Shown here piece by piece: positions 14,851 to 53,234 of a DNA stretch of 64,000 nucleotides. The stretch covers positions 79,504-143,503 of the IMG/VR virus record IMGVR_UViG_3300050821_009780; one strand, given 5' to 3'. The notes beneath the pieces were generated by a model that was given only the letters and a program-made list of their open reading frames with translations, did not search any database and had not been told where the DNA came from. The position numbers and the translations under genes are program-made. The first letter of the stretch is position 1; every line of letters starts with the position of its first letter. This stretch comes from a virus.

Positions 14851-15809
14851 CCCTGCCACGCCCCGTTCCGGTCAAACTTGCGGAAGTACTCGTAGGTGCG
14901 CTTCATCCCGTCGGCCAGGTCCATCTCCGGCTCCCAGCCCAGCGCCCGCAGGTGCGAGTCGTCCAGGGACTTGCGGAAGGTAATCTGCCCCGGCGGCGGG
15001 ACCTCCACGATGCACGACTTGCTCCCGGCCAGCTCTCTGGCCATCTGAGCCAGCTCCAGGACCGGGTAGTGGTCGTCGTTGCGGCAGACGTTCCAGGTGC
15101 CAGCCTTGCCGGCCTCCAGGATGGCGGCCAGGCCGCGCACGCTATCGCCGACCCAGGTGAGGCAGCGCTCGGTGCCGAGGTGGACGCGCAGGTCCATCCC
15201 GTGCTCGGCCTCCCAGAGCATGGAGTGCAGCACGTTGTATCCGACGGTACCGGGCTTGCCAGAGATGTGCGGCTTCTCGGCCGTCCGGGGCGGCCAGTAG
15301 GCGGGACCGTAGGGCATGTTCAGCCGGGCGACCATGAGGCCCTTCGGGGCGTAGACCCGGCATGCCTCCTCGCCCCACTTCTTGGACAGGCCGTACATGT
15401 TGACCGGCCGAAGCTGCGAACCGGGGCCGACGGTGCCGCTGTTGGCGGACTCGCCGTACACCTCGGAGGAGGACATGAACATGAGCCGGGAGCCGTAGTG
15501 CGCGCAGTCGCGGGCCAGCTGCCCGGTGAGGCCGGCGTTCATGCCTGCGGTCTTGTGCATGTCCACCTCGCCCCACACCCGGCCGTACAGCGCGGCGAGG
15601 TGGACCACGACATCAGGGCGGCGGTCCTCCAGCCAGTCCTCGCGGGCCTCGCGGCAGTTCAGGTCGAACAGGCGGAAGGTATCCCAGACCGGCTCGGTGG
15701 TGTTGGGGTAGACCAGGTCCTGGGCGTGGACCTCGTGGCCGCAGCGGTGCAGCTCGGCGAGCAGCCAGCCGCCGACATATCCTGACGCGCCAGTAACAGC
15801 GATTCTCAT
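14847..15809 (-). CDS. NAD-dependent sugar epimerase/dehydratase (extended SDR)
   Basis: 320 residues from ATG 15809, in an ATGA overlap with dnaX; the longer upstream frame is out. MRIAVTGASGYVGGWL is the Rossmann TGxxGxxG loop; MFMSSSEVYG supplies the catalytic Ser and YGLSKKWGE the YxxxK pair. This family interconverts nucleotide-activated sugars (GalE, RmlB and similar). The length is normal and all catalytic residues are present. Probably makes the sugar donor for the adjacent transferases. Confidence 0.88.
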   Translation of the reverse strand: MRIAVTGASGYVGGWLLAELHRCGHEVHAQDLVYPNTTEPVWDTFRLFDLNCREAREDWLEDRRPDVVVHLAALYGRVWGEVDMHKTAGMNAGLTGQLARDCAHYGSRLMFMSSSEVYGESANSGTVGPGSQLRPVNMYGLSKKWGEEACRVYAPKGLMVARLNMPYGPAYWPPRTAEKPHISGKPGTVGYNVLHSMLWEAEHGMDLRVHLGTERCLTWVGDSVRGLAAILEAGKAGTWNVCRNDDHYPVLELAQMARELAGSKSCIVEVPPPGQITFRKSLDDSHLRALGWEPEMDLADGMKRTYEYFRKFDRNGAWQG

Positions 15810-16957
15810 GCGGTGAAGTACTCCGTTTTCAGCAGTCCGGCCGCCGTCAGCGGCGCGTGGTGGCCGTTCCCGTTGCCGTTCGTCGGCGGCAGGGGCGGGC
15901 AGAGCTTCTCGCTCAGCACGGCAGCGGCCAGCTCCAGCCCGGCCCGGCGGTCCTCGGTGCGGCACCTGACCTGCAGGTCCCACAGCACGCCCATCGCCCG
16001 CACCACGCGCCGGGAGTCCACGCTGTGTGCCAGCAGCAGGCGGCCCTGCAGGGCCTCGCCCTGGGCGGCAACCGTGCCCCCGGCGGACAGCACCAGCACG
16101 TCGCGCAGGCAGGTAACCAGCTGCCGGGTAAGGGCGGGGTAGTCGCTGCAGGTGAGCAGCGCCCGGTCCAGCTCGGCGTACATCCCCTTGTGGTCGCCCT
16201 GCGCGGCGGCGGCGAGCAGGGCCGGGGCGAAGTCCTCGTCGCAGGTGAGCTGCTGCCAGGCGTCCAGGGTGACGATGTCCACCGACGCAGCCTGGTCGAG
16301 CAGCATGAGTCCGTCGCGCATGATCCCGTCGGCCCGGTCGGCCAGGTGGAGGAGCAGGCTGTCCTCGACGACAATGTCCTCGGCGGCGCAGACGTGGCGC
16401 AGCCGGGAGGCGATGACGGACGGGGCCAGCCGGGCGAACGCGAAGGGGATGCAGCGCGACCCGATCGTGTCCGGCACCTTGCCGTGCTCGGTGGTGGCGA
16501 GCACGAAAGCGGTGCGCGGCGGCGGCTCCTCCAGCGTCTTGAGCAGCGCGTTGGAGGCATCACGGCTCATGGAGTGGCACTCGTCGAGTATCACGACCCG
16601 CCACTCGCCAGGGGCGCCGTACTGCACCAGGTCGCAGATGCTCCGGATCTTGTCCACGGTGCCGTTGGAGGCGGCGTCCACCTCGATCACGTCCAGGGAA
16701 GTGCCGCCGGCGACCGCCTTGCAGGACGAGCAGGCGGTGCAGGGCCAGGAGGCGGCCGGGCCAGGCGGCTCGTGGCAGTTGAGGGCGGCGGCGAAGATGC
16801 GGGCGCTGGTGGTCTTGCCCGAGCCGAAGGCCCCGTAGAACAGCAGTCCGGCGGGCACGCGCTTGCGCTGGGCCATCCGGTTCAGCACCCCCGCCACCTC
16901 GCGCTGGCCGACCAGCTCGGCGAACCGCTGAGGACGGTATTTCGTGGCCAGCCTCAT
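15806..16957 (-). CDS. dnaX: DNA polymerase III gamma/tau-type clamp loader subunit
   Basis: 383 residues from ATG 16957. KYRPQRFAELVGQ opens the protein as in bacterial DnaX. Walker A GAFGSGKTT is near residue 43, the four-Cys zinc module follows (CHEPPG...CTACSSC), Walker B is ILDECHSM, then LLKTLEEPP and IGSRC, the SRC motif that contacts neighbouring subunits. Domain III and a short tail complete a gamma-like form without the long tau extension. It would load the phage sliding clamp (24852-26051) together with delta and delta-prime. Confidence 0.93.
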   Translation of the reverse strand: MRLATKYRPQRFAELVGQREVAGVLNRMAQRKRVPAGLLFYGAFGSGKTTSARIFAAALNCHEPPGPAASWPCTACSSCKAVAGGTSLDVIEVDAASNGTVDKIRSICDLVQYGAPGEWRVVILDECHSMSRDASNALLKTLEEPPPRTAFVLATTEHGKVPDTIGSRCIPFAFARLAPSVIASRLRHVCAAEDIVVEDSLLLHLADRADGIMRDGLMLLDQAASVDIVTLDAWQQLTCDEDFAPALLAAAAQGDHKGMYAELDRALLTCSDYPALTRQLVTCLRDVLVLSAGGTVAAQGEALQGRLLLAHSVDSRRVVRAMGVLWDLQVRCRTEDRRAGLELAAAVLSEKLCPPLPPTNGNGNGHHAPLTAAGLLKTEYFTA

Positions 16958-17229
16958 TGCGGTCTCCTGCCGATCGTGGTTCCCAGGAACACGTGCGCTG
17001 GGCTATCGGGTACGGGCGTGCTGGCCTTGCGCCGCACACCCTCCGGAATTCCCAGGGAGCAGCTGCCGGCGGCGGACTCGTCGGGCACCAGCTCGTAGCC
17101 GAACTCCATCTCGCACTGCGTGCAGCGCCAGTAGCAGAGCATGCCGCCCTCGGCCAGCTCCTCCTCCGGCTCGGCGGCGCCCCCGCAGTCGCTATCCAGG
17201 CAGGCGCGGTTCAGTTCGTAGCGTTCCAC
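16954..17229 (-). CDS. Zinc-ribbon hypothetical protein (91 aa)
   Basis: GTG 17229 with GGAGAGG five bases upstream, overlapping the methyltransferase gene end. CLDSDC at about residue 9 and CYWRCTQC at about residue 33 form a probable zinc ribbon; the tail is basic. It ends in an ATGA overlap with dnaX. Function unknown. Confidence 0.6.
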   Translation of the reverse strand: MERYELNRACLDSDCGGAAEPEEELAEGGMLCYWRCTQCEMEFGYELVPDESAAGSCSLGIPEGVRRKASTPVPDSPAHVFLGTTIGRRPQ

Positions 17230-18356
17230 GGCAGCCTCTCCAGCAGGATGAGCAGGGCCAGCACGGCCTGCCGCGGAACGACCCCGTTGCCGAGGATCTT
17301 CAGCTGGGCGTTGCGGGACAGGCCGTCCACCCCGGTGACCCAGCCCTCCGGCAAGCCGAGCATCCACTCCACGAAGACGGGGGCGAGCACGCGGTTGCCC
17401 TTGCTGCCCGGCTCCAGCGGGTGCGGCACCATCCGGCCGGTGACCTGCTGCCAGCGCAGGACGGCCCGGGAGTACTTGCCCCAGTCCACCACCGGGCCGC
17501 TGCCCAGGTGCTCGGCCAGGCCAGGGAGCAGCAGCTCCCCGCTGCGTGCCCCGGAGCGGTTCCTGTGGCCTCCGGTCACGTCGGCGACCTGCGGGGTGGG
17601 CAGGAGCGCGCCGGCCAGGGTCGGGTTACCGCGCTTGTACGCCAGGCTGCGCCGCTCCCCGTCAGCAGCTGCCGGGGTGGGGAGAAGGCTGCCCCCGGTG
17701 CCCATCATGTCGTTCTCCACCATGATCCGCAGGTCGGTGACCGAGGTGCGGCCCGGCTTCTTGCGCAGGTGGTTCTCCGGGGTGTTCTGGCTGTAGCTGG
17801 CGACCGGGGTGGGCAGCAGCTCGTGCTCGGCCTGGTCGGCGAGAGTGGGGCCGTGGCCGCCGGCCCGGCGCTTATCCGGGTGCTGGCTGCCGCCGTTGAC
17901 GGCGAGCTGCGCGGTGGGGGTCTTCAGCAGACTGACCGCCTCGGGCAGGTCCGCGTCCGCTGCGGTGCGCGCCCGGCCGTCCCTGCGGACCCGGCCCACC
18001 GACACGGTAGGGCCCTTGTGGTCGCTGGCCTGCGGGGTGGGCAGCATGGACAGCGTCTCGATGAGGGTGCCGCCCTCGCGGGCCTTGGCGGGGGTGACCA
18101 GTCCGCCGTTACTGCCCAGCGTCGCCGAGGGCGTCGGGAGCAGCAGGCCATGCGGTGATGAAGATCCGCTCCCGCCGGTGGCAGGACCCGGCATCTGAGG
18201 CGCGTACATTCTGCCATTCCGCATCGTACCCGAGGGTGGAAAGGTCTCCGAGAACAGCTCCGAGTGCCCGCAGAGCATGTCCTGCCCTTTTTCCCAGACA
18301 GATCTCGCAGGATTCCACGTCGCTATGGGCGGAGGCAGAGCATATCCCTCGGACAT
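17211..18356 (-). CDS. C5-cytosine methyltransferase, target-recognition and motif X part
   Basis: 381 residues. The body is built of repeated LLPTPxA-type segments with variable spacers, a pattern of target-recognition regions in this phage methylase group. The C-terminus SRNAQLKILGNGVVP is conserved motif X of C5 methylases, preceded by FVEWMLGLPEGWV. The N-terminal 80 residues overlap the catalytic gene in another frame. ATG 18356 lacks a clear ribosome binding site, so expression could depend on coupling or +1 frameshifting from the upstream frame. Not active alone, since motifs I-VIII are on the other frame. Confidence 0.75.
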   Translation of the reverse strand: MSEGYALPPPIATWNPARSVWEKGQDMLCGHSELFSETFPPSGTMRNGRMYAPQMPGPATGGSGSSSPHGLLLPTPSATLGSNGGLVTPAKAREGGTLIETLSMLPTPQASDHKGPTVSVGRVRRDGRARTAADADLPEAVSLLKTPTAQLAVNGGSQHPDKRRAGGHGPTLADQAEHELLPTPVASYSQNTPENHLRKKPGRTSVTDLRIMVENDMMGTGGSLLPTPAAADGERRSLAYKRGNPTLAGALLPTPQVADVTGGHRNRSGARSGELLLPGLAEHLGSGPVVDWGKYSRAVLRWQQVTGRMVPHPLEPGSKGNRVLAPVFVEWMLGLPEGWVTGVDGLSRNAQLKILGNGVVPRQAVLALLILLERLPWNATN

Positions 18357-18690
18357 TTTCGATTACCACCAGTTCCGGCCGGAGAATTCCGATTGCGTAA
18401 GCCATGTACGTCCACACGCCGCTGCGGGTGCCGGGGCGCAGCCCGGCCCGCTGGCCGGCGCAGGACACGTCCTGGCAGGGGAACCCCCCGCAGAAGATGT
18501 CCACCGGCTCGACCTGGTCCCACTCCACGGTGCTGATGTCGCCCAGGTTCGGCACGTCCGGGTAGCGCTGCTTGAGCAGCAGGGACACATCCGGGTCGTT
18601 GTCGGCAACCCAGGCCAGCTCGGCGCCGAACACGGCCTCGACGGCCCCGTCCAGGCCGGCGTAGCCGGTGCAGGCCGACCCGAGCCTCAC
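18109..18690 (-). CDS. C5-cytosine DNA methyltransferase, catalytic part
   Basis: 193 residues from GTG 18690 (GTGA overlap with the previous stop). Motif I LGSACTGYAGLDG, motif IV GGFPCQDVS with the nucleophilic Cys, motif VI IENVRG and motif VIII with CHRRERIF are present in order. It ends at TAA soon after motif VIII, before the recognition domain and motif X, which are on the overlapping frame to the left. Two-part C5 enzymes such as M.AquI are known to reassemble. Probably methylates phage or host DNA to evade restriction. Confidence 0.85.
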   Translation of the reverse strand: MRLGSACTGYAGLDGAVEAVFGAELAWVADNDPDVSLLLKQRYPDVPNLGDISTVEWDQVEPVDIFCGGFPCQDVSCAGQRAGLRPGTRSGVWTYMAYAIGILRPELVVIENVRGICSASAHSDVESCEICLGKRAGHALRALGAVLGDLSTLGYDAEWQNVRASDAGSCHRRERIFITAWPAAPDALGDAGQ

Positions 18691-18977
18691 CGGTGCCCCG
18701 CCACCCAGCGGTGATGCGCAGCCCGGACCCTCATGTGACGCGGCAGGGTAACAGTCATGATGGACTGCCAGCCGTTCCTCTTGGCCCGGAACCCGTAGGA
18801 CGGCGGATCGCACATGGTGCAGAGCCAGCGCCACGGGTACTCTCCCCAGCCGTGGCTCTCAGCGTAGCCGCCCTTGCCGTAAAGGATGAACCGATCGCGC
18901 CAAACATAGAACCTGCGCTCGGTCGGGCGCCGGTAGTTCGTGCTGGGCGGGTTACGCCAGCTGGTCTGGATTTTCAC
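18687..18977 (-). CDS. Hypothetical aromatic-rich protein (96 aa)
   Basis: GTG 18977 chosen over the longer frame because of its overlap with the stop of the upstream 79-residue gene. Rich in Trp, Tyr and Arg with one CTMC pair; no recognised family. Coupled by a GTGA overlap to the methyltransferase catalytic gene. Confidence 0.5.
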   Translation of the reverse strand: MKIQTSWRNPPSTNYRRPTERRFYVWRDRFILYGKGGYAESHGWGEYPWRWLCTMCDPPSYGFRAKRNGWQSIMTVTLPRHMRVRAAHHRWVAGHR

Positions 18978-19277: not shown

Positions 19278-22200
19278 TTATACGAGCCTGCTGAGGCCGA
19301 CCGCGAAACCGGACGCTCCCAGCTCGTCCCGGCAGCGGGGGCAGTAGTCCATATCGAACACCTCGCCGAGCAGCCCGGCCGGGACGGCGGTGCCGCAGCC
19401 GATGCACACCGGGCGCAGCAGGCTGCCCTGGAGCGGGTCGGCACCGTCGAAGAACGCGAGCCGACGGGCGGTGTAGCGCATAGCATCCACCCAGGACTTC
19501 TTGCCGCACAGCGGAGCGTACGCCTGGTAGGGGCCGAGCTTGCCGTTGAGGATCATGCGCAGCAGCAGCCGATCAGCGTCGCGGACCAGCCAGGCGTCGG
19601 CGATGTGATCCTTGGCGTTGGCCTCCTCGGCGCTCATGCCGGAGTAGAAACTTTCCTGTTTGAGCAGCACCCGCACCTCGGGAGCCTCATCGTAGGCGCG
19701 CAGGGCGGCGGCGAGGGCCTGCTCGCCTCCCGCCACCTCCAGCTCCCAGAAGGATTTGGGGGTCGCCGGAAGCTGGGACTCCTTGGGGTAAAGCATCCAG
19801 CTCTGAAGGGCCAGCCACGGGTCCAGCTCCGCCTTGAACCAGGCGATGAAATTGTTCATCTTGTGCGGCTGACGGGTGAGGCCGAACTCGGCGTAGTCCG
19901 TCCCGGCACTGCGGTCGCGGAACTTGTAGGCATCGCTGACGATGCGGACCGACCGCTTGGCGATGGGCGGGAACCCCTCGGTGTGCTCCTGGGCGCGGTA
20001 GGCGGCGCGGCGGATGGCGAACTTCCAGTGCGCGTTCGACACGAACCGGTGCTTCTCCGACCGTTCGTACCGGAACCGGACCTTGCACGCGACGGTGGTC
20101 TGATCGAGGGGGCGGACCGGCCGGGCCTCCAGGTCGCGGTCGGTCGCCTTGAGGTAGCCCTGGCGGATCTTCAGGTCGGTCTTGTCGCAGCAGCCGCAGG
20201 TGTTGCCGGAGCAGTGCTGGTCGCAGCGGGCAATCCACTCGCTGCCGCGGTAGCTCTCGTCGAACTGCTCGTCGTAGCTCTCGCTGTCGGTTCCCTCCAG
20301 GAACTGCACCATGTGCCGGTAGGCGCCCCACATGAGCTGCTTGGAGACGCCGGTGTCGATGTGCTCCCAGCCGAACAGGTCGTCCTCGCCCATCTCCAGG
20401 AACAGGTCGTCCAGCCCGTTGCGGAACCCGTGGTTCTTCAGCGCGGCGTTGAGCCGGTCCTTCATGTCCTTGGCGACGCCGCCCCAGCAGCCGGCGGCGA
20501 GGTCCTCGATCACGTCGGTGATGGCCTCCCCGGCGTCGCGGCTGGCCCGCTGGCACGCCTGGAACAGGGCGATCTTCTCCGGCTGGGCCTTGCTGCCGAG
20601 CTTCATCTCGATCCGCTGGTCGCGGAGGTCGGCCATGGCCTGCTGGAGGGTGTAGTCGGGGGCGGTGGGGGCGAACCACTGCATGGGGGTCTGCGCCTCG
20701 ATGAGCAGCGGCGTCCAGGAGAACTGGATCCGCACGCCGGGCTGGCCGAGCTGCTCGCGGATCTCTGCCAGCCGCTGGCCGAGCCTGACGATCCGCATGA
20801 CATCCCCCGCTTCCTCGCCGGGCATGTTGGAGATCATGAACAGCTTGACCTTGCGGATGCCGGCCCGGATGGCACGGGTGACGGCCTCCTCGACGTCCTG
20901 GTCGGAGACGCCCTTGCCGATCAGGTCGCGCATCCGCTGGCTGTTGCCCTCCAGGCCGAGGGTGACCGCATCGGTACCGCCGAAAGCGAGCAGCATGGAG
21001 TAATCCGGGTCGCCGATGAAGTCATCTACCCGCATCGCCCCGGTATCCACCTCGTCGGACACCTGCTCCAGCAGCCCGCCGAGCAGCTCCTTCTTGCGGG
21101 TGTACATGGGGAAGTCGGGGCCGTAAGGAGACAACTCGTTCGATCCCATGTTGAGCCGCCACTGCCTGGCCTGCTCGATCAGGTACTCCACGCTGTGCTC
21201 GCGGTAGGGCTTGTCCACGTAGGTGAGGTGGCAGTTCATCGTAAACACGCCGTCCGCCAGCGAGAAGCGGTGCGAACCCGGCACAGTCAGGCAGTAGACC
21301 TCCTGCGGCTTGTCCAGCGGCTCGATGGCCTCAACGCACCACCCGTGCCTTTCCGGCTTGACCAGGGTGTGCTGCATGAGCGGAGCGCTACGCGGCCCGA
21401 AGTTGGTTACGTCGGAACGGCTCTGACAGCAACCGACGTACACCCAGCCTCCCTGCGCAGCGTGTCGCTCCAGCCACTGGCTGGGAGACGTGTCGCCATG
21501 GTGCTGAGCACTGTACTGCGCAGCAAGAACATAAGAGGTCTCCTTAGCACGCAGGGTGCCATCTGCGGCAAGCCAGCCTTCCAGGAACCCAGCTACGTAA
21601 GCGGTATCAACTGCGGGCGAAGGCCATGACTTGACATCGAAGGCGGCCCACCCATAGACCACAACATCACCCTTGGCGTAATCCGGGTTCTGAATGGAAC
21701 TGACCCGGAGGTCAGGGCGGACAGCCCAAGAATCCCGGTCGTCCTGGTCAGGCTGCCAAAACTTCTCGAACCAAGGCCGAACGGCGGCGTCCTTGCCAAA
21801 CAGGCGCACCTTGAAGGAACCCGACAGCACAGGCCGCCGTTCACCGGTAGAGAGCTTCCGCTGGTGGCCGTCCCCGAACAGGAACCCGTGCACCCGGCCG
21901 AGGTCGTAGCTCGACCCGTCGTACTGCACCGAGGCAGCAGCAGCAGGCACAAAGTCTCCAGCCCGTAGCGCATGCGTCTCCGTACCATCTACCAGCTCCC
22001 AGCCATGCGCCGCAGTGGCTGTGACCTGAACCCGATGCGTGGCCTTGGGGTTACGTCGCCAGGCTCCGTTCGCCGTTCCGCAGTCGGCGGGACGGAAGGT
22101 GATGCGCTGCACCGCCTGGACCCCGTGCGACTCTACGGTAGCGCTAGCCCAAGCCGCGCCATCCCAGACCTCAGCCTTCCCGACCCCGTGCAACCAGTCG

Positions 22201-23156
22201 ATGGATGAGATGCCCCACTCGCGAGACAAAACCTGAGTCTCCCCGATCAACGGGAAGCTGCACCAGGCCGGGCAGCCCTTGCCTGCCTCGATGTCCCCCG
22301 CGCCCATGCCCGGGTCGGAGTACAGCAGCGGGGCCTGGGTGTGCGGGGCGGCGCTGTCCAGGTCCTTGACGTACCGCTTCTTGAACCTGACCGCCGGGCC
22401 GCCGAGCGCCGTAGGGCCGGACCACCCGCTCACCAGCTTGGTCGGCTCGGGCAGCCCGCGGTCCTCGTACCTGTAGCCGAACTCCACCTCGCGGGGGAAG
22501 TACAGGAACGGGAACTCCACCGCCAGCATCCGGTAGCACATGGACCGCTCGGCCCGCCACAGGCCGTCCGCCTTCATGTCCGCGATGGCTTCCATGACCA
22601 CCGAGATGCCGGGGTTGCCGGGGGCGTCCTCGGCCTCGCCGAGGAAGACGCAGTCCACTACCGGGGCCATGAACTCGGGGTGGCTCCACGCCTGCCCGCC
22701 GGCCATGACCATGGGGTAGGCACCCGGGTCACCCAGGCGGTCGCGCCAGCGCAGCGGGATGCCACTTACCCGGAGGTACTGGCAGAAGTTGAGCCAGAGG
22801 ACGGTGTAAGAAATAGAAGTAGCGAAGACGTCGAAGTCCTGTACGCCGTGCTTGGTCTCAATCCCGAAGACAGGTAGACCCGCCCGCTCCAGCAGGCGGA
22901 AGTCACGTGGGGTGGCAGGCAGGTAGAAACGGTCACAGAGCGCTCCAGGAGAGTCGTTGACGCACCGGTAGACGACCGGGGTGGAGTTGTTCCCCGCCGC
23001 CTGCATGTACGGCCAGGAGGCCGCCAGGAGCATGCGGACGGACGCCTGGTCCCACGGCTTACGGACGGAGCCCGGCTCGTCGCCCAGGTATGCCTCGGGG
23101 CCGTCCAGCTTCCACAGATTGCCGTCCAGCCAGCGCTGGATATGCCCAGGGTCCAC
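19278..23156 (-). CDS. Radical SAM protein, B12-binding/DUF2344 type, containing an intein
   Basis: 1292 residues from GTG 23156 (AGGA seven bases upstream). Residues 60-190 resemble the N-terminal B12-binding-like domain of TIGR03960-type proteins. The radical SAM motif CxxxCxxC begins at Cys295 and Cys299; the third Cys is residue 642 because a 340-residue intein sits between them. After the intein come EGNSQRMRDLIGKGV (SAM-barrel core), WEHIDTGVSKQLMWGAY, the Cys cluster CDQHCSGNTCGCC, a DUF2344-like region from CKVRFRYERSEKHRF, and a C-terminal zinc ribbon. After splicing about 952 residues remain. Reaction unknown, probably radical modification of RNA or protein. It is unusual cargo for a phage. 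Confidence 0.8.
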   Translation of the reverse strand: MDPGHIQRWLDGNLWKLDGPEAYLGDEPGSVRKPWDQASVRMLLAASWPYMQAAGNNSTPVVYRCVNDSPGALCDRFYLPATPRDFRLLERAGLPVFGIETKHGVQDFDVFATSISYTVLWLNFCQYLRVSGIPLRWRDRLGDPGAYPMVMAGGQAWSHPEFMAPVVDCVFLGEAEDAPGNPGISVVMEAIADMKADGLWRAERSMCYRMLAVEFPFLYFPREVEFGYRYEDRGLPEPTKLVSGWSGPTALGGPAVRFKKRYVKDLDSAAPHTQAPLLYSDPGMGAGDIEAGKGCPAWCSFPLIGETQVLSREWGISSIDWLHGVGKAEVWDGAAWASATVESHGVQAVQRITFRPADCGTANGAWRRNPKATHRVQVTATAAHGWELVDGTETHALRAGDFVPAAAASVQYDGSSYDLGRVHGFLFGDGHQRKLSTGERRPVLSGSFKVRLFGKDAAVRPWFEKFWQPDQDDRDSWAVRPDLRVSSIQNPDYAKGDVVVYGWAAFDVKSWPSPAVDTAYVAGFLEGWLAADGTLRAKETSYVLAAQYSAQHHGDTSPSQWLERHAAQGGWVYVGCCQSRSDVTNFGPRSAPLMQHTLVKPERHGWCVEAIEPLDKPQEVYCLTVPGSHRFSLADGVFTMNCHLTYVDKPYREHSVEYLIEQARQWRLNMGSNELSPYGPDFPMYTRKKELLGGLLEQVSDEVDTGAMRVDDFIGDPDYSMLLAFGGTDAVTLGLEGNSQRMRDLIGKGVSDQDVEEAVTRAIRAGIRKVKLFMISNMPGEEAGDVMRIVRLGQRLAEIREQLGQPGVRIQFSWTPLLIEAQTPMQWFAPTAPDYTLQQAMADLRDQRIEMKLGSKAQPEKIALFQACQRASRDAGEAITDVIEDLAAGCWGGVAKDMKDRLNAALKNHGFRNGLDDLFLEMGEDDLFGWEHIDTGVSKQLMWGAYRHMVQFLEGTDSESYDEQFDESYRGSEWIARCDQHCSGNTCGCCDKTDLKIRQGYLKATDRDLEARPVRPLDQTTVACKVRFRYERSEKHRFVSNAHWKFAIRRAAYRAQEHTEGFPPIAKRSVRIVSDAYKFRDRSAGTDYAEFGLTRQPHKMNNFIAWFKAELDPWLALQSWMLYPKESQLPATPKSFWELEVAGGEQALAAALRAYDEAPEVRVLLKQESFYSGMSAEEANAKDHIADAWLVRDADRLLLRMILNGKLGPYQAYAPLCGKKSWVDAMRYTARRLAFFDGADPLQGSLLRPVCIGCGTAVPAGLLGEVFDMDYCPRCRDELGASGFAVGLSRLV
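21234..22253 (-). other. Class 3-type intein with LAGLIDADG homing endonuclease
   Basis: Residues 302-641 of the radical SAM precursor. The N-terminal residue is Pro (PLIGETQVL), not Cys or Ser. The class 3 WCT triad can be read: Trp in block B (TAAHGW, intein residue 85), Cys in block F (VYCLTVPG, residue 321) and Thr in block G (FTMN, residue 338), with terminal Asn340 and Cys+1. Two LAGLIDADG-like helices, GFLFGDG and AGFLEGWLAADG, mark a homing endonuclease. The +1 Cys is the third iron-sulfur ligand, so the enzyme cannot form its cluster before splicing. Confidence 0.85.
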
Positions 23157-23420: not shown

Positions 23421-23620
23421 TACAGGTCTTCCCGGTGCACTTCGAGGATGCGGTTCCGCAGCTCGCGCTCCAGCTTCTCCAGGCCGAAGCTATCCACCTG
23501 GTGGAGCACGACGAACTTGCTGCCGCGCGTGAGCCCGTCGCCGTGGAACCGCGCCACGTCCCGGACAATATCCCACTCGGGATTGTTCTTCGGGTGATCC
23601 AGCTTGATGCGGAACTTCAC
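23420..23620 (-). CDS. Hypothetical protein (66 aa)
   Basis: ATG 23620 overlaps the stop of the SbcC-like gene. A small mixed-charge protein with a strand-rich start (MKFRIKLDHP) and a helical end (LEKLERELRNRILEV). No known family. Confidence 0.55.
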   Translation of the reverse strand: MKFRIKLDHPKNNPEWDIVRDVARFHGDGLTRGSKFVVLHQVDSFGLEKLERELRNRILEVHREDL

Positions 23621-24264
23621 TCGGACTCCCCCTCGTGGACCTCGGTCACCCCGTCCGCCCCTAGTACAAGGCGGTAACGTGCGTCGGCCAGGTCACCGAA
23701 GGCCGTGCTGTGCGTGACGAGCAGGATCTGCACTCCAGCCTTGTCAGCGACCTCACGCAGGAACTCGGCCACCCGAGGCTCATAGGACGCTGAGACGTGG
23801 GCAAATGACTCGTCCAGTGCCAGAAAGCGGCGCGCTCCCGGGGTGAGCAGGAGCACGACCAGCCGTAGAACGAATCCCACGACAGCAGCCATCCCTCCGC
23901 CCCGGGCATCCAGCACTGGAGTCTCGACCACGTCATCTCCGTAGCTGCTCCTGATCACGAAGTCCACCTCGGCGCGGTTCGCCTTAACGGACGGGACCAT
24001 GTGGAAGGTCAGGTTCTCGGAGAAGATCACCTGCAGCGCCCGGGTGACCAGCCCCTCGACCTGCTGCCGGGCGGATTCCTGGCGCTCCTCGCCGATGGTG
24101 GTGAGCAGCGCGCACGCCTTCTCGTGCAGCTCCTGGGCGGCGCGCAGCTCGCGGACCCGCTCCTGAGCCTCCTTGCCCTGCCGGGCCACCTGGGCGGCCT
24201 GCCCGGCCTCCCGGTCCAGGCCCCGCTGCACCTGGGCCAGGCGCGCGGACAGCGCAGGAATCAC
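23617..24264 (-). CDS. SbcC/Rad50-type ATPase, C-terminal half
   Basis: 215 residues from GTG 24264 (GTGA overlap). A coiled coil (about 1-70) leads into the C-terminal lobe of an ABC-type DNA-repair ATPase: signature-like LDARGGGMAAVVGF, Walker B RRFLALDES with the D-loop after it, and the H-loop LVTHST. There is no Walker A, which is supplied by a separate gene at 31353-32291. Together the halves equal one short SbcC/Rad50 subunit, expected to work with the SbcD-like nuclease at 28406-29431. Confidence 0.75.
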   Translation of the reverse strand: MIPALSARLAQVQRGLDREAGQAAQVARQGKEAQERVRELRAAQELHEKACALLTTIGEERQESARQQVEGLVTRALQVIFSENLTFHMVPSVKANRAEVDFVIRSSYGDDVVETPVLDARGGGMAAVVGFVLRLVVLLLTPGARRFLALDESFAHVSASYEPRVAEFLREVADKAGVQILLVTHSTAFGDLADARYRLVLGADGVTEVHEGESE

Positions 24265-24467
24265 TGCCCTCCGCCGATCCAGATGCCCTTCTTCTGCGGG
24301 GAACAGCACGAGCACCGGGCCCGCCTGACGGTACCGTCCTCCGCAACTATCAGCGGCAGTCCCTCGTGGCTGTGCGCCTTGGAGGAGTGCTCCTTGTGCT
24401 TCAGCCTGCGCCGCTGCGCCGGGGTGGGGCTGCTGCCGTACAGCTTCGCGCGCTCTTCATGCGTCAT
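24261..24467 (-). CDS. Small basic protein with Cys cluster (68 aa)
   Basis: ATG 24467. The N-terminal half is Lys/Arg/His-rich (PAQRRRLKHKEHSSKAH), and RARCSCCSPQ near the end could bind metal. Probably nucleic-acid binding by composition; unassigned. Confidence 0.5.
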   Translation of the reverse strand: MTHEERAKLYGSSPTPAQRRRLKHKEHSSKAHSHEGLPLIVAEDGTVRRARCSCCSPQKKGIWIGGGQ

Positions 24468-24851: not shown

Positions 24852-26051
24852 CTAGTATCCCACCAGCGAAGAAGCCATCTGCGTGAGCACCTGAACGGTC
24901 CCGGTGCCCTCCAGAAGGATAACGGAGCGGCGCTTGCCGAGGTCCTTGCCGAGCCGGAACGCGCAGGTCACATCAGGGTGCGCGGCCAGCATCTCGGCGA
25001 GGAACACGTGGTTGACGCACAGCACCCGCTCCTTGCCGGGCCAGTCGGTGACCAGCTGAACGGGCACGGACGCGGAGTGGCCCACCTGATCGCGGGACAC
25101 CACGGTAACGGTGCTGCCCTCGACGACCAGCGCGATGGCGGCGGTGTCGGCGTCGGCGTTGACCCGGACGCACCGCACGGCAGCCGACAGCTCCTCGCGG
25201 TCCACGGCGAGTACCTGGTCGTTATCCCCCGCCGGGCCGAGCAGCTGCTTGTCCATGTCCGGGAACGGGGTGGAGCGGCGGGCCACGGCGAACACCACGT
25301 GGTCGGCGCGGAACACCAGGGCATCCTCGGTGACGGCCACGCCGACGGCGTCGCCCTGGCTGCCGGACACCAGCCGGACGATGTCGTCCAGGGCCGAGGA
25401 GGGGATGCACATGGGGTGGGGGAACTCGTCCAGCTCGGCGCGGGCGAACCGGGTGCCGTCGGAGGCGGTGATGCGCCTGCCCTCGAACCCGTCCGAGCCT
25501 TCGGGGGCGCCGATCTCCACCTGGGTGAGCATGGGGCGGCCGGCGTCGCGGCACACCGCATGGCGTACCGCCTTCAGCCCGGCGAGGAACTTCTCCGCCG
25601 GGTACAGGAAGAACCCCAGCTCGGACGGCTCCAGCAGCTGCGGGTACTCGCCGCTGTCCGGCAGGGCGAACACCCAGGAGGCGCTCCCGGCGGTGACGGT
25701 CGCCCGATCCTTCTTCACCGCGACGGTAATGCTCTCCTCCGTCGCCTCCTTCAGCACGGCCTGGAGCTTCTTCGCCGGGATGAACGCCTCGGCGGAAGCT
25801 GACTCGTCCACGCTGTCGCCGGTCCACACCGCCTCCGTGGAGGCGAGGACGATGCGCTCCATGTCGGTGGCGGCCAGCTCCAGCCCGGCATGGCTCACCC
25901 GGACCCGGTAGCAGCTAAGCACGGGGAACTGGCCGGAGGAGGGCACCGCCGGTGCCACGGCAGCGGCCAGGGCCTTCAGCACGTACGGCTTGACCCGGAA
26001 GGTGAACTCCCCGTAATCGGTTCCCGCAGCCGGTTCGTCCGCCTCGTTCAC
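24852..26051 (-). CDS. dnaN: DNA polymerase III sliding clamp (beta subunit)
   Basis: 399 residues, close to bacterial DnaN (about 370). Three repeated clamp domains can be followed; ATDMERIVLAST, FIPAKKLQAVLKEA and ITASDGTRFARAEL match conserved DnaN segments. The dimeric ring tethers the polymerase to DNA. The usual C-terminal MPMR-like end is replaced by ASSLVGY. It sits in a recombination block, apart from its probable loader genes at 15806, 41812 and 43179. Its start overlaps nothing essential and follows an ATGA-type junction with the coiled-coil gene. Confidence 0.9.
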   Translation of the reverse strand: MNEADEPAAGTDYGEFTFRVKPYVLKALAAAVAPAVPSSGQFPVLSCYRVRVSHAGLELAATDMERIVLASTEAVWTGDSVDESASAEAFIPAKKLQAVLKEATEESITVAVKKDRATVTAGSASWVFALPDSGEYPQLLEPSELGFFLYPAEKFLAGLKAVRHAVCRDAGRPMLTQVEIGAPEGSDGFEGRRITASDGTRFARAELDEFPHPMCIPSSALDDIVRLVSGSQGDAVGVAVTEDALVFRADHVVFAVARRSTPFPDMDKQLLGPAGDNDQVLAVDREELSAAVRCVRVNADADTAAIALVVEGSTVTVVSRDQVGHSASVPVQLVTDWPGKERVLCVNHVFLAEMLAAHPDVTCAFRLGKDLGKRRSVILLEGTGTVQVLTQMASSLVGY

Positions 26052-26308: not shown

Positions 26309-26483
26309 GGCGCACCGCCTCATCCCAGCCTGCCGCAGCCCGGAGATGCCGGGCGAGCGCGGACAGCCGCCATATGACCAGGCCCTGGCAGCTCGAACGG
26401 CGCCGCAGCACGTCAGCGGCCCGCTCCAGGATGACAGCGTCCGCGACCTTGCGCTCCGCGTTCTCCCGCAGGATGTCCCTCAT
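26301..26483 (-). CDS. Small basic helical protein (60 aa)
   Basis: ATG 26483 preceded by AGGAGG three bases upstream and overlapping the upstream stop. Contains VIWRLSALARHLRAAAG. The composition suggests nucleic-acid binding; unassigned. Confidence 0.55.
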   Translation of the reverse strand: MRDILRENAERKVADAVILERAADVLRRRSSCQGLVIWRLSALARHLRAAAGWDEAVRRD

Positions 26484-27367
26484 GCCCCTCCTACCGCCAC
26501 CCGGCCGCTCTTCGGCCCGCGTCCCTTGACCGGGCAGGCGTGCTTGACGTCGCAGTACCGGCACTTAGCCGGGGTCGGAGTAGGGTCCACGCGACCGTCC
26601 AGGATGTCGTTGGCCACGGCGACGATGCGCTGGAACATCTGCGTCCGGTGGTCCGCAGTGAACTGCCAGGACGGCATGGTCTCATCGCACAGCGGCTGCA
26701 GCAGCCCGGAGCAGACCGGCCACCGGCCCTTCTTCATGGCCCACACGGCGATCTCGTAGAAAACGAGCTGGCCGAGGGTCTTGCGCCAGTACTGGTTATC
26801 TCTGGTGGTCTTCAGATCCCAGACCTCGACGACCATGCCGTTCTCGTCGGTACCGTTGACCTGGACCTCGCCTGGCAGAAGCCGGCGGCGGACCAGCAGG
26901 TCTATCTCTCCGTGGAGAAGGATCTGCACCTTGCTCCCGTCCGGGCGCGGGATGACGAGCGGCACCTCGAACCGCGGCGCCGGGTCCCAGTCGTAGGACG
27001 GCGGCTCGTACAGGTGCAGCAGGGTCCGCAGGTCGTCCTCCAGCTGGTGCACCGCGTCCCGGCACATCTCACGGACCTCGGCGCGGTCGGAGAGGTGCTT
27101 CCAGCGGATGATGCCGTCGCCCGCCTCCTGGGTGCCCTTCTCCAGCTCGTCCATGATCCGGTCCACCTGCGCGGTCATCCAGCCGCGCTGGGGGTCGTCG
27201 CCCTGCAGCCACTGGCGCATGCACCGGTCGGCGACGTTGCCGGCGAAGAACACGCGTCCATCCGCCACCTTGGACCGGCGGCCCAGCGCGATGAGGTGGC
27301 CCTTCTGCGGGCATTCGCTGTGCAGCCTAATCCGACTCCAACTTATCTTCAACGGACTGTCGGTCAC
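26480..27367 (-). CDS. RecB/Cas4-like PD-(D/E)XK nuclease with Cys cluster
   Basis: 295 residues. The PD-(D/E)XK core reads as HGEIDLLV followed by VVEVWDLKTT near residues 155-190. A Cys early in the protein (SECPQK) plus three at the C-terminus (CRYCDVKHAC) form the layout of the iron-sulfur clamp in AddB/Cas4 nucleases. Expected activity is DNA end processing, fitting the neighbouring SbcCD, RecA and clamp genes. The gene couples to its neighbours by ATGA overlaps. Confidence 0.8.
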   Translation of the reverse strand: MTDSPLKISWSRIRLHSECPQKGHLIALGRRSKVADGRVFFAGNVADRCMRQWLQGDDPQRGWMTAQVDRIMDELEKGTQEAGDGIIRWKHLSDRAEVREMCRDAVHQLEDDLRTLLHLYEPPSYDWDPAPRFEVPLVIPRPDGSKVQILLHGEIDLLVRRRLLPGEVQVNGTDENGMVVEVWDLKTTRDNQYWRKTLGQLVFYEIAVWAMKKGRWPVCSGLLQPLCDETMPSWQFTADHRTQMFQRIVAVANDILDGRVDPTPTPAKCRYCDVKHACPVKGRGPKSGRVAVGGA

Positions 27368-52344: not shown

Positions 52345-53174
52345 TACCAAGCCAGCTTCCTGTCATCGCGCCGCATGGACTTGTTGTACGTGTCGGCCAG
52401 CAGCTCGGCCAGCACCCGCCAGCGGGTGCCCCTCGTCGTCTTCTCGCGGGTGCGCTTCAGCCAGGACTCGGCGCTGGAGGTGGTAGACAGCCGGGCGGTG
52501 AGCTTTTTCGTATCGATGACGCCCTGGTTCACCTCGATGAGGTGGCCGACCGCGCGGATGAGGGTGCCCTCCCAGCGGGCCCCCGGCTGGTAGTCGTCCG
52601 GCCAGGCGTGCGCCAGGGTCAGCAGCGTCGTCCGCAGCAGCGCCTCGCCCTCCTCGGGGGTGCGCCCGCGTCCGGTGAGGATGGCGGTCAGCGCACGGGC
52701 AGACATGATGCCGGCGGCCGAGGAGTTCGACCCCATGACCAGGCCGATTTCGGCCAGTACCTTGTCCCCGGCCACGACGTACGGGTCGCCGGCGTGCAGC
52801 TGCAGGTCCCAGCGGGCCAGCGCGGAGTGGCCGCGGCGGCCCTGGGCGATGCCCTGCGCGGTCTCGGCCTCGGCGGCGACGGTAGAGACCCCGGTGCGCT
52901 TGACGACCCAGGTGTAGCTGCCGGGACGGGTCTCCTTGAGGCGCAGCACCCGGTGCTGGCCCTCGTTGACGACCAGGACGCCTCCCTTGCGGGCAGAGAC
53001 GGTGGGCACCTCGGCGATATCCCAGTTCCACTCGGCGTGGAAGATCTTGTGCCGGGCCTCGTCCACCTCACGCTGGACGTTCTCGTCGATGACCAGGTCA
53101 TCCACGTTGACCCACAGCATCTCGCGCGGGTCGTCTCCGGTGCCCCTGAACGGGGGCGTAACTACCTTGCCCAT
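52344..53174 (-). CDS. ParB/Srx-domain protein (276 aa)
   Basis: ATG 53174 with GGGAG upstream is chosen; the longer frame enters the promoter. LWVNVDDLVIDENVQREVD and VLVVNEGQHRVL give the ParB/sulfiredoxin core (the latter equals the GxHR box). The C-terminal 150 residues are helical. Such phage proteins range from CTP-dependent DNA clamps to nucleases and transcription regulators. It is the first gene after an operator-bearing promoter. Confidence 0.7.
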   Translation of the reverse strand: MGKVVTPPFRGTGDDPREMLWVNVDDLVIDENVQREVDEARHKIFHAEWNWDIAEVPTVSARKGGVLVVNEGQHRVLRLKETRPGSYTWVVKRTGVSTVAAEAETAQGIAQGRRGHSALARWDLQLHAGDPYVVAGDKVLAEIGLVMGSNSSAAGIMSARALTAILTGRGRTPEEGEALLRTTLLTLAHAWPDDYQPGARWEGTLIRAVGHLIEVNQGVIDTKKLTARLSTTSSAESWLKRTREKTTRGTRWRVLAELLADTYNKSMRRDDRKLAW

Positions 53175-53205
53175 ATGCTGCTCCCTTTCGCAGTAACTTG
53201 CCTTG

Positions 53206-53234
53206 AGCATAGTACGCAGCTTGGCTCAAGTCAA
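53206..53234 (-). promoter_or_regulatory. Promoter with phage operator (site e)
   Basis: -35 TTGACT (53234-53229), 17-base spacer, -10 TATGCT (53211-53206). Operator TTGACTTGAGCCAA equals the consensus of the family. Begins two bases after the stop of the SNF2-type gene and drives the ParB-like gene and beyond. Confidence 0.82.

Follow-up and report, generated by a model that had tools for sequence, protein, structure and literature searches.

What would a phage do with a very large radical S-adenosylmethionine (SAM) protein that is built like a bacterial family? The question is raised by a 143.5-kb virus record in IMG/VR (IMGVR_UViG_3300050821_009780), of which a stretch of 64,000 nucleotides (positions 79,504–143,503, hereafter the window) was analyzed. 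One unbroken frame of 1292 aa on the minus strand of the window (23156–19278) encodes a protein that an initial annotation, made from the sequence alone, had assigned to the TIGR03960/DUF2344 type and linked to the modification of RNA or ribosomes. A group of large uncultured phages carries this giant predicted radical-SAM enzyme. At somewhat better than even probability, we favor the reading that it represents a phage-specific TIGR03960-type subfamily that modifies RNA and that is made in the window virus as a precursor with a class 3 intein in the active site. The intein, for which the initial annotation gave neither the class nor the exact site, is the most unusual part of the protein.

Profile searches with the raw product matched Radical_SAM_N2 in addition to a shortened Radical_SAM domain; TIGR03960 was matched in two pieces, and an intein C-terminus was recognized as well. 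Excising aa 302–641 joins GCPAWCSF to CHLTY and restores CxxxCxxC, such that the motif named in the initial annotation is present only after an intein of 340 aa is removed. TIGR03960, matched in two stretches before the removal, is then matched in a single continuous stretch (aa 14–605, 187.7 bits, E 3.3e-55). An N-terminal Radical_SAM_N2 domain (PF19864, 88.4 bits against a cut-off of 29) followed by a radical-SAM core (PF04055, above its cut-off, with 55.9 bits on the spliced protein) bears out the proposed B12-binding-like domain and SAM barrel, with a [4Fe-4S] motif predicted to be complete only after splicing. The WEHIDTGVSK block, the auxiliary Cys cluster, and the C-terminal ribbon are also real features; the cysteines of the cluster (C638, C642, C647, and C650) are invariant across 16 aligned phage proteins. 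For DUF2344, the profile scores are sub-threshold and a direct profile comparison with the phage domain was weak (E 1e-4, probability 27%), but a full-length collinear alignment with the bacterial TIGR03960 and DUF2344 pair recovers the domain (Nonomuraea, 28% identity) and, combined with the modeled fold described below, supports homology of the C-terminal domain to DUF2344.

The bacterial counterparts, TIGR03960 (rSAM_fuse_unch) together with TIGR03936/DUF2344, share with the phage protein the domain order, CxxxCxxC, a W-x-H-x-D block, and a second Cys cluster, at 21–28% identity end to end. Conversely, the phage protein falls far below the curated cut-offs, has FCxL or similar in place of the bacterial FCQAG, an altered GF(N/S)PH motif in DUF2344, and an added C-terminal ribbon, and its gene adjoins DnaN/DnaX where the bacterial homologues adjoin RNase E/G. 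In a tree of 16 phage proteins and 67 bacterial homologues, the phage proteins form one group (Shimodaira–Hasegawa-like approximate likelihood ratio test support of 100), joined to the bacterial homologues by a very long stem of ~5.2 substitutions per site. The tree and the bacterial matches, all at ≤29% identity, rule out a recent capture from the host and place the protein in an old phage-specific subfamily. The family assignment of the initial annotation was right as to type, and is narrowed here to a separate phage subfamily with scores below the family cut-offs and no captured host copy.

Homologues occur on 22 IMG/VR contigs at 43–58% identity, of which 16 were recovered by an alignment search (45–58% across the whole protein or the greater part of it) and the other six by a search with neighboring genes. 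The longest run without variation in the first phage alignment is GCPAWCSFC; the added contigs have the variants CDNWCVFC, CSSWCSFC, CPAWCVFC, CPAWCSMC, and CPAWCTFC, with the three cysteines kept. CxxxCxxC is intact in intein-free relatives wherever the motif was displayed (that of L126 was not), and the relatives with the intact motif are exact empty sites for the window intein. For one close pair of relatives (L015 and L017), nonsynonymous (dN) and synonymous (dS) divergences of 0.026 and 0.218 give a dN/dS of ~0.12, which shows purifying selection on the phage gene. A chance match is excluded by the architecture, which is preserved in 22 phage relatives, and by the dN/dS of this one pair; the claim of a phage-borne protein of this type holds. 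It should be noted that the gene is broken across three frames in L022 (L022:9998-12840), as a result of either pseudogene formation or assembly errors, and that a stop occurs near the C-terminal end when the matched stretch of L128 is read.

A search for phage homologues had been suggested as a check, and outside of IMG/VR it returned no genuine phage record with the protein in INPHARED. The INPHARED matches to the extein were rejected as phage homologues, as they are UNVERIFIED 'Bacteriophage sp.' faecal scaffolds. Read closely, MT835938.1 (L005) is a piece of bacterial chromosome with the order TIGR03960-TIGR03936-rplS-lepB-ylqF and genes for ribosomal protein L19, signal peptidase, and RNase HII, while MT836750.1 (L004) and MT839369.1 (L003) look bacterial and fall within the bacterial part of the tree.

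The intein of the window protein is inserted between the second and third cysteines of CxxxCxxC. A class 1 intein beginning at the Cys of CPAWC was considered and rejected, as it would leave CxxxCxxT while relatives show CxxxCxxC; only a boundary at Pro1, set by the empty sites in relatives, restores GCPAWCSFC. Residue 1 is thus non-nucleophilic, and the Trp B:12, Cys F:4, and Thr G:5 triplet (WCT) that defines class 3 inteins (PMC5050341, PMC5222942) is present, with TIGR01443 (intein C-terminus) scoring 15.9 bits against a cut-off of 15.6 at blocks F/G. The lack of Cys1/Ser1, the triplet, and Asn G:7 are shared with the class 3 inteins of Mle and Msm DnaB and Bvi IcmO. Unlike the usual class 3 intein, the window intein has Cys+1 in place of the usual, though not obligatory, Ser+1/Thr+1, Met in place of the penultimate His (G:6), and LAGLIDADG-like motifs, which suggest a homing endonuclease. 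Among class 3 inteins, Bvi IcmO was the sole Cys+1 exception known to PMC5222942 (2016). Further, unlike those inteins, it lies within a radical-SAM cluster motif and shares its Cys+1 with that motif; no paper on class 3 inteins in radical-SAM proteins was found in the literature searched. The GC content at third codon positions is 0.73 in the intein and 0.90 and 0.93 in the exteins, which fits a recent arrival. No relatives of the intein were found in IMG/VR with peptide patterns. The closest intein found, at 26.5% identity, is in NrdD, the anaerobic ribonucleotide reductase of Morganella phage MP1 (L007:2593-5370). This intein is unannotated; it shares the WCT motif and Cys+1 but resides in a different host protein and has Cys at its position 1.

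These departures bear on whether the window copy is functional at all. Were the intein unable to splice, or were it a class 1 or 2 intein with other boundaries, the cluster site would be incomplete and the protein inactive, and both the missing penultimate His and the rarity of Cys+1 in class 3 would be in keeping with this. However, all three signature residues are present along with His B:10 and Asn G:7, the run restored by the Pro1 boundary is the one invariant in the relatives first aligned, and a single frame stays open across 3.9 kb, which makes an inactive copy quite improbable. A different class 3-like intein of 329 aa interrupts the auxiliary Cys cluster of the homologue in IMGVR_UViG_3300025018_000260 (L026:9986-13864). 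Its blocks (TGDHLW, TQC, and THN, followed by Thr+1) have Trp, Cys, and Thr at the equivalent signature positions, and its junctions read CYGKA/...THN/TCGVC. Inteins prefer conserved active-site positions, and because two inteins were independently inserted at the two cysteine clusters, both clusters are likely functionally critical.

Since Cys+1 is both the predicted splicing nucleophile and a cluster ligand, the unspliced precursor would lack a complete radical-SAM site, and the enzyme could presumably be switched on only after splicing. The use of splicing as a regulatory switch is speculation. The more specific scenario, in which the Cys+1 intein ties maturation of an RNA-modifying enzyme to thiol/redox or Fe-S state during infection and the enzyme alters host rRNA or tRNA, is doubtful. 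A Cys+1 class 3 intein within CxxxCxxC offers a natural test of interference between splicing and cluster assembly.

As to what the mature enzyme would act on, the fold was predicted with AlphaFold2 for a relative (L023) and searched with Foldseek. The whole model (mean predicted local distance difference test score, pLDDT, of 72.5) matched MgmA, OxsB, TsrM, AprD4, and RNA-bound MiaB through its core, plus PUS10, TruA, and Pus1. The C-terminal domain alone (pLDDT 87.7) was matched best by Pus1, PUS3, and E. coli TruA, and 13 of its 14 best matches are Pus1, PUS3, PUS10, or TruA, with a mitoribosome assembly factor as the other. In this model the domain has a TruA-like pseudouridine synthase (PUS) fold, but inspection of the phage C-terminal domain by eye did not reveal the GRTDxGV catalytic motif of these enzymes, and aligning the domain with TruA by profile produced nothing usable. 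The core fold resembles the cobalamin radical-SAM enzymes MgmA, TsrM, and OxsB, but no DxHxxG was apparent by eye in the N-terminal domain of the phage protein. Pfam divides the pseudouridine synthase domain into halves, with DUF2344 listed as the partner of PseudoU_synth_1 (PMC7955657). Bacterial homologues lie within ~4 kb of RNase E/G at 50 of 83 loci. No paper on TIGR03960/DUF2344 function was found in the literature searched. RNA is the best-supported substrate because the modeled C-terminal domain matches TruA/Pus1/Pus3, and the fold, the Pfam pairing, and the bacterial proximity to RNase E/G together are the reason for committing to RNA modification. The earlier proposal of RNA or ribosome modification has thus gained support; the target would be a host RNA, probably ribosomal or transfer.

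The same matches could be read in favor of a protein substrate, host ribosomal or phage, that is methylated or otherwise modified in the manner of MgmA or RimO: MgmA (9ccb), a protein glutamine methylase, is the best solved relative in both sequence and fold, and RimO was also matched. However, these matches span the shared radical-SAM core, and MgmA and RimO enzymes are not known to contain the DUF2344/PUS-like domain, which makes a protein target rather improbable.

Wherever both flanks are present (21 loci, including the window), the gene lies between an SbcC-like ATPase and DnaX. This constant slot and its neighbors (nuclease, clamp, Mre11-like protein, and RecA) favor an enzyme acting on DNA or the replication machinery, through radical-based base repair or modification, within a nuclease-DnaN-ATPase-DnaX module. 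Against this, only 21 of the 46 loci with both the ATPase and DnaX neighbors have the gene. The 25 without it include L124, which is nested among carriers in an ATPase and DnaX tree requiring four changes, and Microbacterium phage Magritte, a syntenic relative and, judged by the replication module, the nearest isolate. Magritte shares Mre11, nuclease, DnaN, ATPase, and DnaX, but has no gene of the TIGR03960-like phage family anywhere in its genome, and no copy was found elsewhere in the records of the 12 non-carriers searched whole, Magritte included. Because 25 of the 46 loci lack the gene, the module does not need it, and a direct role in replication is therefore less likely; combined with a PUS-fold domain that indicates RNA, this leaves a DNA role unlikely.

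The phage's own tRNAs would be an obvious RNA target, as this group often has 24–44 tRNA genes (arrays of ~24–44 were observed in G011, G008, G024, G005, G004, and Magritte). The window genome, however, has the enzyme and no tRNA gene in 143.5 kb, and phage tRNAs are thus not required as the substrate; Rfam and ARAGORN scans of the window likewise had no matches. Three other carriers have 1–2 tRNA genes, several relatives without the enzyme have 24–44, and no correlation was found between tRNA arrays and presence of the gene. A general role in phage tRNA modification is largely refuted, and modification of phage-encoded tRNAs is very unlikely.

Modification of RNA remains the favored role, and several observations weigh against it. 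The profile search intended as a check produced a strong TIGR03960 E-value but missed the curated cut-offs of TIGR03960 (462.3 bits, compared to 187.7 for the window protein and 157–200 for relatives), TIGR03936 (71.9, compared to 12), and PF10105 (23.8, compared to 15.1). The PUS fold was modeled on L023 instead of the window protein and its template modeling scores are moderate (~0.4–0.5). The stem of ~5 substitutions per site makes the phage clade extremely divergent, and its function may have changed. Additionally, the gene sits amid DNA replication and recombination genes, no RNA substrate was found to co-occur with it, and a comparison of eight carriers with seven non-carriers yielded no credible partner gene: the sole candidates were one head-protein-like gene, further genes that are probably structural, and frames that are probably antisense shadows (identities by eye).

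A possible mechanism builds on the directly supported elements (domain anatomy, insertion site, WCT signature, PUS fold of the relative's model, purifying selection, and the conserved slot) and adds splicing, cluster assembly, and RNA as the substrate as its inferred steps. Translation would yield a precursor whose active site is interrupted by the intein; Cys F:4 would attack the N-terminal junction, the chain would be transferred to Cys+1, and Asn340 would then cyclize as the exteins join. Joining would place the third cysteine three residues past the second, creating CxxxCxxC, and the mature enzyme could then bind [4Fe-4S] and cleave SAM. An RNA held by the PUS-like C-terminal domain would be modified, with possible assistance from the auxiliary Cys cluster and zinc ribbon. 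TIGR03960/DUF2344 proteins are widespread in bacteria, and the phage subfamily may offer a direct route to their substrate because of its purifying selection, its PUS-like domain, and its clean presence and absence in closely related phages, one of which is cultivated and lacks the gene.

Table 1. Positions in the window of the radical-SAM gene, its domains and intein, and the adjacent replication genes.
Feature	Position	Strand	Basis or remark
Whole open reading frame	19278..23156	-	1292-aa precursor = 952-aa extein + 340-aa intein
Start codon GTG, preceded by ribosome-site-like stretch GGATAGGA		-	
N-extein	22254..23156	-	aa 1-301; ends ...GCPAWCSF with first two cluster cysteines
Radical_SAM_N2 / B12-binding-like N-terminal domain	22548..22976	-	aa 61-203; PF19864
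CxxxCxxC first half, C295 PAW C299 SF	22254..22274	-	
Intein	21234..22253	-	340 aa (aa 302-641), Pro1 ... Asn340, class 3 signature
Intein block A, PLIGETQV, Pro1 replacing Cys1/Ser1	22230..22253	-	sequence and alignment register
Intein block B, T-A-A-H(B:10)-G-W(B:12)	21999..22016	-	aligned with two other WCT inteins
Intein LAGLIDADG-like motif 1, LGRVHGFLFGDG	21867..21902	-	inspection; GDG aligned with MP1 and L026 inteins
Intein LAGLIDADG-like motif 2, AYVAGFLEGWLAADG	21558..21602	-	inspection and alignment
Intein blocks F/G, VYC(F:4)LTV ... FT(G:5)MN(G:7)	21234..21299	-	
Cys+1, predicted splicing nucleophile = third cysteine of [4Fe-4S] motif	21231..21233	-	
Remainder of radical-SAM core barrel	20781..21233	-	PF04055 on spliced protein
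WEHIDTGVSK block	20340..20369	-	aligned with bacterial W-x-H-x-D block
Auxiliary Cys cluster, C638 x3 C642 x4 C647 x2 C650	20187..20225	-	
DUF2344-related, TruA-like pseudouridine-synthase-fold domain	19446..20111	-	model of relative L023; sub-threshold PF10105
C-terminal CxxC...CxxC zinc-ribbon-like segment	19332..19406	-	sequence; kept in most relatives, lost in one
DnaX-like clamp loader, downstream neighbor	15806..16957	-	TIGR02397 285 bits, above cut-off
ATPase (phrog_15167), SbcC-like, upstream neighbor	23617..24315	-	
DnaN-like sliding clamp	24852..26051	-	
PD-(D/E)XK nuclease	26480..27367	-	

The window also encodes a terminase-like protein, an endolysin, RecA, and Mre11-like proteins. 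The host is likely actinobacterial, because the replication module resembles that of Magritte and the RecA is similar to mycobacteriophage RecAs. Two of the Magritte (OR553905.1) annotations look mistaken: the 'ASCE ATPase' (gene 247) corresponds by alignment to the DnaN-like clamp, and the 'exonuclease' (gene 2) to the SbcC-like ATPase. Elsewhere in the window, a C5-cytosine DNA methyltransferase (17211-18834, minus strand) is split into two overlapping frames (18109-18834 and 17211-18356), which could represent a two-subunit enzyme, a frameshift, or an assembly error. A ParB-like partition protein (phrog_1033; 52347-53210, minus strand) may point to a plasmid-like or temperate lifestyle.

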